Shown: positions 1-1,086 of the stretch, piece by piece
How the letters are laid out: the number at the start of each line of letters is the position of its first letter
Numbering within the stretch: the first letter of the stretch is position 1
Assembly (NCBI GenBank): GCA_913060475.1
Contig: CAJXSD010000002.1
Span: 62,001-126,000, forward strand
Reading direction: 5' to 3'
DNA from: an uncultured Paracoccaceae bacterium
Lineage (GTDB): Bacteria; Pseudomonadota; Alphaproteobacteria; Rhodobacterales; Rhodobacteraceae
Length of the DNA: 64,000 bases
Notes under the pieces: model-generated
Told to the model about the DNA's origin: nothing
The model's input: the letters and a program-made list of their open reading frames with translations, nothing else
Databases searched by the model: none
Program-made: the position numbers and the translations under genes

Positions 1-142
1 TGTCAATATCGAACCGCGGATAGGTGTTGTACAGGTCCACAATCGTTACCCCATCAACAGCGCGCGCGGCCGTAATCATGGCCGTATTGGCCTGCGACCT
101 TTCCTGCGCAGGATGCGCATAGTAAATTAGAACGTTGGCCAT
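1..142 (-). CDS. KefF/KefG-type NAD(P)H oxidoreductase, N-terminal part (runs off window)
   Basis: Only the first 47 codons lie in the window. The protein starts MANVLIYYAHPAQERSQAN and continues through VTIVDLYNTYPRFDID. This matches the N-terminus of the flavodoxin-2 fold family: a beta strand followed by the Y-A-H-P flavin-phosphate loop, then the L-Y-x-x-Y-P-x-F-x-I-D segment typical of KefF/KefG and related quinone reductases. These soluble FMN or FAD enzymes reduce quinones, and some act as ancillary activators of glutathione-gated K+ efflux systems. The efflux partner, if any, would be outside the window. The family call is firm; the KefF role itself is inference. Confidence 0.8.
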   Translation of the reverse strand, partial: MANVLIYYAHPAQERSQANTAMITAARAVDGVTIVDLYNTYPRFDID

Positions 143-224
143 ATTTTCCCCACCTAAGCATATCACAACCATACCAAAGTGGTAATTTATGCAAGCCATG
201 TCAACCACGAAAGGGTATCCAAAC

Positions 225-252
225 AAAAAAGGCCGCCCTGTGGCGACCTTTC
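225..252 (-). terminator. Intrinsic terminator of the small transcript
   Basis: Minus-strand reading gives AAAGGTCGCC, a short ACAG loop, GGCGGCC and then six T. The seven-base stem contains one G-U pair and is followed directly by the T run. It ends the small transcript before the next minus-strand gene. Confidence 0.75.
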
Positions 253-317
253 GAGAATTCCGGAGGTGGGCCGGTTAGGAACCACCAATTCTGGATTGTC
301 AAAGATTAAGGGCTGCC

Positions 318-374
318 TTAATCAATCACCCTCCGAACTGTTCCGACACCTCTCTCCAATACCTCTCTAGACAC
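318..374 (-). CDS. 18-aa mini-ORF with full-length Shine-Dalgarno
   Basis: The GTG-initiated ORF encodes VSREVLERGVGTVRRVID (N-terminal residue read as Met) and ends in TAA. The GGAGG core lies 7 nt before the GTG, and the whole AAAGGAGGTG matches the complement of the 16S 3' end, which is exceptionally strong. The peptide is short, charged and has no membrane segment. It may be a regulatory or translated-leader ORF rather than a functional protein. Confidence rests on the ribosome site and the flanking promoter and terminator; function is unknown. Confidence 0.5.
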   Translation of the reverse strand: MSREVLERGVGTVRRVID

Positions 375-407
375 TGGACCACCTCCTTTCGCTATGTTTC
401 GATACTA

Positions 408-438
408 GGTATGGTGGCACAGTTTCCAGAAATGTCAA
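408..438 (-). promoter_or_regulatory. Probable sigma-70 promoter of the small transcript
   Basis: On the minus strand a consensus -35 TTGACA at 433-438 begins 6 bases beyond the transporter stop codon. A -10-like ACCATA or CATACC follows at a 17-19 nt spacer, and a further TAGTAT lies at 402-407. This would start transcription near position 400, upstream of the Shine-Dalgarno site. Confidence 0.5.
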
Positions 439-444
439 AATGTT

Positions 445-1086
445 TTATGCAACAGAATTGTGAAATCTGTTGGCCAACACACGGAACGGGATCAATGCGA
501 TCAGGGCCAGCGCCAATTTCACACCCCAATCGGCCAATGCCAATGACACCCACAGCGGCGCATCGCCCCCAACGGTCAACAATGGCATCGTGTCCCAGGC
601 CCAGGATATTTCCATGTTTGCGTTTTCGGAAAAAAACGGCACGAATTGCGCGAATGCGATGGTGAAAAACAATGCCGTGTCCAACGCGGATCCCACGATT
701 GTGGATGTCAGCGGCGCACGCCACCACGCACCGGCGCGCATTTTGTCGAACACAAACACATCGACCAATTGTGCGGTCAGGAATGCGATGCCCGATCCGA
801 CAGCGATGCGGAATGCAACGGCGGCATATTCGTAACCATCCCCCTGCAACATGATTTGGCTGCCGATCAGCGAACAGATCACGCCCACGATGAAACCCAC
901 AAACACAACGCGACGTGCAGCCGCCGGCCCGTAAACGCGGTTCATCAGGTCAGTGACCAGAAACGCCAATGGATAGGTAAAGGCCCCCCATGTCAGCAGG
1001 CCATCAAGGATCAGAAACTGAACCAGAACATTCGAGGCCACAACAATGGCGGCCATGGCGATCACGCCAGGTAGTAATTTTGTCAT
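445..1086 (-). CDS. yhhQ: Queuosine precursor transporter (YhhQ/QPTR family)
   Basis: This 213-aa integral membrane protein has about six hydrophobic segments and carries the family signature region YPLAFLVTDLMNRVYG around residues 38-53. Members import queuosine precursors (preQ0/preQ1) across the inner membrane for tRNA wobble modification. The ATG at 1086 gives MTKLLPGVIAM; an upstream TTG at 1107 is in frame but would add only a charged stretch. The gene follows mepA on the same strand, separated by about 100 bases rich in hairpins. No other queuosine gene is nearby. Assignment to the family is confident; preQ0 versus preQ1 specificity cannot be read. Confidence 0.85.
   Translation of the reverse strand: MTKLLPGVIAMAAIVVASNVLVQFLILDGLLTWGAFTYPLAFLVTDLMNRVYGPAAARRVVFVGFIVGVICSLIGSQIMLQGDGYEYAAVAFRIAVGSGIAFLTAQLVDVFVFDKMRAGAWWRAPLTSTIVGSALDTALFFTIAFAQFVPFFSENANMEISWAWDTMPLLTVGGDAPLWVSLALADWGVKLALALIALIPFRVLANRFHNSVA

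Follow-up and report, generated by a model that had tools for sequence, protein, structure and literature searches.

What could a very small transcription unit gain from a Shine–Dalgarno (SD) sequence that complements nearly the whole 3′ tail of 16S rRNA, when the same RNA also carries an anti-SD sequence of its own? This question is raised by the minus strand at 402–221 of the window, i.e. the whole 64,000-nt stretch of DNA that was analysed. An earlier note had described here a short self-contained transcript with a full SD, an 18-codon open reading frame (ORF), a downstream anti-SD arm, and a visible promoter and terminator, and all of its element coordinates on the minus strand check out against the sequence. 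The features are as follows.

433–438, minus strand: −35 element TTGACA, read from the sequence, with TTGAC kept in relatives
221–402, minus strand: approximate small RNA transcript with an inferred start site, from promoter to terminator, the block being conserved in relatives
375–389, minus strand: extended SD AAAGGAGGTGGTCCA, complement of the 16S 3′ tail UGGAUCACCUCCUUU over 15 nt
318–374, minus strand: 18-codon ORF MSREVLERGVGTVRRVID with a GTG start and the stop TAA at 320–318; start, length and stop are conserved
370–378, minus strand: 5′ arm of the start-codon hairpin, TCCAGTGTC, in the longest conserved helix of alignment A1
355–363, minus strand: 3′ arm of the same helix, GGTATTGGA, within ORF codons 4–7
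262–270, minus strand: post-ORF lock arm CCCACCTCC, partner of the SD (386–380 with 262–268)
221–252, minus strand: intrinsic terminator, a conserved hairpin with changes on both sides
445–1083, minus strand: VUT-family transporter (Vut_1, Pfam PF02592), upstream neighbour outside the element
2–157, minus strand: gene start of a flavodoxin-like NAD(P)H oxidoreductase (weak Pfam match), downstream neighbour outside the element

The full SD (AAAGGAGGTGG at 389–379) precedes the GTG ORF (374–318) as the note had said, and the downstream arm at 270–262 holds the exact 8-nt complement CCACCTCC (269–262). The terminator is likewise confirmed as a GC hairpin with a T-run at 252–221. The promoter was borne out in part: TTGACA is present at 438–433, but a generic sigma-70 scan matched no full promoter, so that the −10 is uncertain. 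Of 55 Rhodobacterales relatives, 38 have TTGAC at a distance of 47–52 nt before AAAGG, where 2.5 would be expected from shuffles. The predicted fold of 401–219 has a free energy of −70.6 kcal/mol (z = −3.9), and none of 200 shuffles was equally stable. As read from its sequence, the minus strand at 402–221 is a conserved, self-contained small transcription unit.

The note had also regarded the match to the 16S tail as closer than a normal gene needs, which proved an understatement. The 16S 3′ tail was taken as UGGAUCACCUCCUUU, the 16S end being absent from the MAG assembly, and the complementarity extends over 15 nt (AAAGGAGGTGGTCCA, with one G–U), giving a calculated SD:16S duplex of −24.9 kcal/mol. 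Even in a generous scan that allowed every candidate start, the 16S-complementary runs of the window's 64 long ORFs were no longer than 9 in 63 of them and 13 in one. Across the whole genome, only the small RNA and one other site lie within one mismatch of the 16S-tail 15-mer. That other site (AAAAGAGGTGATCCAATGTCACA; L182, G000:C9:107519–107533) is immediately 5′ of an ORF resembling a membrane protein, and would be an extended SD on a seemingly ordinary gene. In 56 sequences that were selected without using the 20-mer pattern described below, SD positions 1–10 pair with 16S in every sequence (56/56) and positions 11–15 in 91–100%. The full match is not universal, because Rhizobium-like genomes have the SD core GGAAGG; these copies (L214, L215, L228, L234, L239–L241, L243–L251, L255) carry AAGGAAGGTGATCC, in which the core is altered to GGAAGG and the extension GGTGATCC is retained. 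Extended SD–anti-SD pairing has been described as a general mode of initiation in Staphylococcus aureus (PMC13009471). The element likewise complements the 16S tail beyond the SD core, but it is a single small RNA whose near-complete match is family-wide.

Predicted folds agree with the note's suggestion of a translational lock, as 47 of 50 Rhodobacterales sequences have the post-ORF arm paired to the SD. In 43 aligned Rhodobacterales sequences, GGAGGTG and the post-ORF arm CCCAYCTCC pair in 98.0% of cells. A second conserved hairpin, which the note had missed, buries the start codon by pairing TCCA-UGU with AUA-UUGGA inside the ORF (97.3% of cells over the 7 pairs counted in the same 43 sequences). 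Together, the two helices pair in 97.7% of 602 cells, compared to 45–61% when the partners are slid. An all-column-pair scan of A1 ranked the start-codon hairpin (TCCAGTGTC/GRTATTGGA) first, with 9 pairs, and also recovered the SD helix with 6 stacked pairs. With everything after the start codon shuffled as control, the unpaired probability in Rhodobacterales is 0.04 for the SD (0.31 in shuffles) and 0.12 for the start codon (0.37 in shuffles). A third helix, between A1 columns 52–60 and 139–146, was set aside, as in several rows column 60 does not match the partner proposed for it.

The lock had been expected to show conservation of both arms with compensating changes. Both arms are conserved, so that the note's refuting case, in which neither is, fails, but the compensation is one-sided: the changes in the SD helix preserve pairing and fall on one side only (G–C to G–U, U–A to U–G). 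As 16S dictates the sequence of the SD side, compensation on both sides is not possible in this helix, and shuffle control (a) tells nothing about it since one side never varies. The lock arms UUGGA (359–355) and CACCUCC (268–262) jointly spell the 16S tail UUGGAUCACCUCC; therefore, lock and ribosome would compete for the same letters.

The element is widely distributed. A BLASTN search recovered it from 28 of 61 genomes, all belonging to the same family. Within that family, a strict 37-nt pattern occurred in 128 of 198 genomes, which nearly all represent different genera, while the reversed control pattern matched none of them. The exact 20-mer AAAGGAGGTGRTCCNRTGTC is present in 47 of 86 alphaproteobacteria but missing from all 213 other Pseudomonadota genomes. 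When 85,000 species were scanned, nearly all of the matches listed (at least 118) were alphaproteobacterial, and nearly all of the alphaproteobacterial matches listed and read had the same anatomy; a related pattern was found in 112 of 151 Rhizobiaceae genomes. Three matches (L155, L170, L180) were dropped as probably accidental, while a MAG labelled Gemmatimonadota (L095) was kept in the mixed group.

This kind of RNA is already known, as CC2171. Rfam at gathering thresholds gave no match in the window, and CC2171 (RF01867) surfaced only in an E-value search, with 28.9 bits (E 1.7e-4) against a gathering threshold of 75. Its model aligns end to end (positions 1–159) with the window element and relatives, the latter scoring 32–45 bits. 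Of 289 genomes of the class, 61 match RF01867 at E ≤ 0.001 and 9 exceed the threshold; only Caulobacter matches among 14 control genomes. Two or three RF01867 matches each were found in several genomes of the class (G048, G075, G196, G280, G307, G314), and paralogues may therefore exist. RF01867 is reportedly the Caulobacter sRNA described by Landt and colleagues in 2008. Rfam lists it as an sRNA gene, and an ORF does not appear in the description shown. A literature search for CC2171/RF01867 returned only a Mesorhizobium prediction list, in which one member is entered as RF01867, and the Rfam 15 paper. In the openly readable papers searched, which did not include Landt 2008, no description was found of the short ORF, the complement of the full 16S tail, the spread across the class or the lock of Rhodobacterales.

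The two RNAs have in common the 5′ block CAACAA..GAAAGGAGGUGAUCCAGUGUCU, a similar length and a terminal terminator of the GGCCGCC type. The CC2171 block GAAAGGAGGUGAUCCAGUGUC is present near the RNA start, with a single G in place of A in the window, and the CC2171-type 3′ GC-rich terminator hairpin is present as well. In contrast, the CC2171 helix between CAUUGUC (codons 3–5) and GACAAUG before the terminator is absent from the window and the Rhodobacterales alignment, and is replaced there by the predicted SD/start lock. A bridging sequence (L028) combines Rhodobacterales neighbours with an ORF beginning MSHG as in Sphingomonadales. Convergence on a block dictated by 16S is conceivable, but the two also share the upstream CAACAA, TCN at codon 2, their size and their terminator; we read the similarity as distant homology to CC2171, without Rfam membership.

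In Rhizobiales, Caulobacterales, Sphingomonadales and others, codons 3–5 are predicted to pair with the segment just before the terminator, in forms such as CATTGTC/GACAATG, CATGGT/ACCATG and AGTGAT/ATCAC. This helix shows both-side changes in 5 of its 7 pairs (33 cells, compared to 13.0 ± 2.7 in shuffles), and its covariation of 0.415 (0.213 shuffled) was reached by none of 500 shuffles and fell to 0.00–0.07 when the partners were slid. The SD and start codon in most other orders are as open as in shuffles or more so, exceeding them in Rhizobiales and Mesorhizobium-type copies. As the lock is missing from most other orders, it cannot be the core function across the alphaproteobacterial RNA family. 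On this comparison the lock is a Rhodobacterales variant, and the near-complete 16S match, short ORF and terminator are the predicted common core. Separately, the Bradyrhizobium-type copies (L092, L119, L130, L136, L140, L163, L173) have a 14-codon ORF ending in KRCHLAGIAR or KRCHLAEAAR, within which an anti-SD-like CACCTCG pairs with the SD.

We also considered whether the element is the leader or attenuator of a downstream gene. For this comparison we relied on neighbours confirmed by tblastn or Pfam, as stop-to-stop frame clustering mixes coding and non-coding frames. The VUT transporter is upstream in 52 of 56 Rhodobacterales loci, and 41 of the 56 have arfB downstream in the same orientation, which would make arfB the regulated gene in this order. 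However, the terminator stands before arfB, which in the window genome is about 2.7 kb further on, the flavodoxin-like gene (157–2, minus strand) sitting there instead; Paracoccus and others have no arfB at this place, and other orders have no shared neighbour. Neither VUT transporter nor arfB is found in Rhizobiales-type or Sphingomonadales-type loci, with an arfB match in only one mesorhizobial-type locus, and the neighbours sampled elsewhere are a TlyA/FtsJ-like methyltransferase, cyclopropane synthase and dnaX. A conserved regulated gene directly downstream was not found across the loci examined. The arfB leader is rejected on synteny as a very unlikely explanation; the small RNA is, as far as gene order can tell, its own unit, independent of its neighbours. 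In this it differs from the leader uORF of Sinorhizobium meliloti duf1127-1, whose ribosome binding site (RBS) is masked by its own codons and for which the input is translation rather than the peptide (PMC12218461): the element is also a short ORF with predicted RBS masking by its own codons, but the duf1127-1 uORF attenuates a downstream gene, while the element has no conserved downstream gene and has an intrinsic terminator. Genes have come to lie between the small RNA and arfB at window 1–226 and G000:C2:59162–59542, unlike in both same-genus relatives.

The ORF is kept in its length. Exactly 18 codons are found in 53 of 56 Rhodobacterales copies, with TAA (12), TAG (22) and TGA (19) as stops, and in 25 of 27 Sphingomonadales ORFs. 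TGG is never found at the stop position of the Rhodobacterales ORFs, compared to about 8 expected from column frequencies, an expectation that treats the two positions as independent and ignores relatedness. TCN (Ser) at codon 2 is kept across orders, and peptides from different orders have almost nothing in common beyond MS. The pN/pS is 0.79 in Rhodobacterales, with 0.75 and 0.80 in shifted frames, a noisy estimate from 17 codons whose bases are also constrained by RNA pairing, and 1.30 in Sphingomonadales. The pattern VSR..LE.GVGT is recognisable in Rhodobacterales and partly overlaps the lock arm. The stop is held at codon 19 by all three stop codons, and selection on the peptide is probably weak or absent; we infer that translation over a set length is kept, and the amino acids hardly. 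Rhizobium-like peptides are of the type MSNEIS..LV.GMG..RQPS, with 23–24 residues, many of them acidic. Two Rhizobiaceae genomes (L242 and L252; G773, G871) have an 18-codon ORF, MSKAILEIEVRKIGGNGI, that looks like the Rhodobacterales type and unlike the ORF usual in their family, a possible transfer or second paralogue.

Our preferred reading, to which we give a probability of about one half, is an independent translated small RNA, alphaproteobacteria-wide and related to CC2171, in which the act of translating would be selected and the lock would be opened only by a strongly pairing ribosome. Selection would keep the act of translating or ribosome binding more than the peptide. In Rhodobacterales, the fold would bury the SD and start through GGAGGTG/CCCAYCTCC after the ORF and TCCAGTGTC/GRTATTGGA within it. 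Opening the SD, start and 15 nt is calculated to cost 13.7 kcal/mol in the window and 16.9 ± 2.5 kcal/mol in Rhodobacterales, and the calculated gain from 16S pairing is about −25 kcal/mol for the 15-nt match and −12.4 kcal/mol for a 9-nt SD; these figures leave aside proteins, kinetics and the ribosome's own structure. An ordinary 9-nt SD would be insufficient to pay the opening cost, while the 15-nt match would suffice. As the extra complementarity is what such a lock needs, a ribosome-gated, translated RNA is proposed, which would be on only when it is engaged, or caught during its own synthesis, by a 30S subunit whose tail is intact and available. Downstream, the RNA could regulate in trans under ribosome gating, or the lock could simply hold down the output of a small peptide. 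From these comparisons we infer transcription, translation and gating of the small RNA.

It is possible, though we lean against it, that the unit is an ordinary small mRNA for a functional peptide of 14–31 residues, whose very strong SD and structured RBS merely tune yield. Its start, Ser at codon 2, ORF and stop are kept, VSR..LE.GVGT can be recognised in Rhodobacterales, and KRCHLAGIAR is common to Bradyrhizobium copies. The unannotated 23-aa peptide SEP1 of S. meliloti is conserved in Rhizobiaceae and has the highest translation efficiency among novel sORFs (PMC10117765), and relatives studied here encode 23-aa peptides of low pI that agree with SEP1 in size and acidity, the two traits compared. 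However, peptides of different orders are alike in almost nothing beyond MS, pN/pS is 0.79–1.30, and the most conserved Rhodobacterales residues (LE) coincide with the RNA arm TTGGA. A ribosome profiling study in Caulobacter collectively describes its ncRNAs as untranslated, which would argue against translation there if CC2171 were among them. Taking the preferred reading further, the RNA might be a class-wide ribosome sensor whose fold and short translation report the availability of 30S subunits with an intact anti-SD, the peptide being irrelevant; the RNA holds the complement of the whole 16S 3′ tail, and the Rhodobacterales RNA also its own copy of the tail, and we regard this extension as doubtful.

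CcsR-type CCUCC-motif sRNAs have a CCUCC arm able to pair with SD sequences, and the CCUCC-containing arm of the element could pair likewise. The arm CCCAYCTCC might thus regulate other mRNAs in trans once a ribosome opens the lock; in Rhodobacterales its sequence is conserved and repeats that of the 16S tail, and with the SD forced open its unpaired probability rises from 0.07 to 0.29 on average. We consider this unlikely. The earlier note's idea of a free arm mimicking the 16S tail is not upheld by the ground-state value of 0.07, with the arm in a stem rather than a loop, and no single conserved alternative partner for the freed arm was found in the Rhodobacterales sequences. What speaks against free anti-SD mimicry is that the arm stays paired and, when displaced, mostly finds other partners; it is also a single copy and not family-wide. 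RNAs of the SmelA075 and SmelA099 families each present several copies of CCUCCUCCC in their hairpin loops (PMC3927594), unlike the one arm of the element, which lies in a stem paired with its own SD; CCUCC(UCCC) exposed in a hairpin loop is not found in the element. The RNA might instead be a decoy whose near-perfect SD soaks up 30S subunits or anti-SD small RNAs, which would be consistent with the 15-nt match (calculated −25 kcal/mol) and with an SD and start more open than shuffles in Rhizobiales and Mesorhizobium-type copies. We hold it to be quite improbable, as the SD is closed in Rhodobacterales, a decoy has no need of a conserved start and stop codon, and titration would need very high abundance.

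A small RNA present across much of one of the largest bacterial classes has thus been filed, if noticed, as a Caulobacter sRNA without an assigned function. By the comparative evidence it has a conserved short frame and a near-complete match to the 16S tail, its translation seems to count for more than its peptide, and one order appears to have made the RBS into a lock using the same letters as 16S rRNA. This raises a question that is testable in laboratory strains: could the condition of the anti-SD in the ribosome itself decide whether an RNA is on or off?
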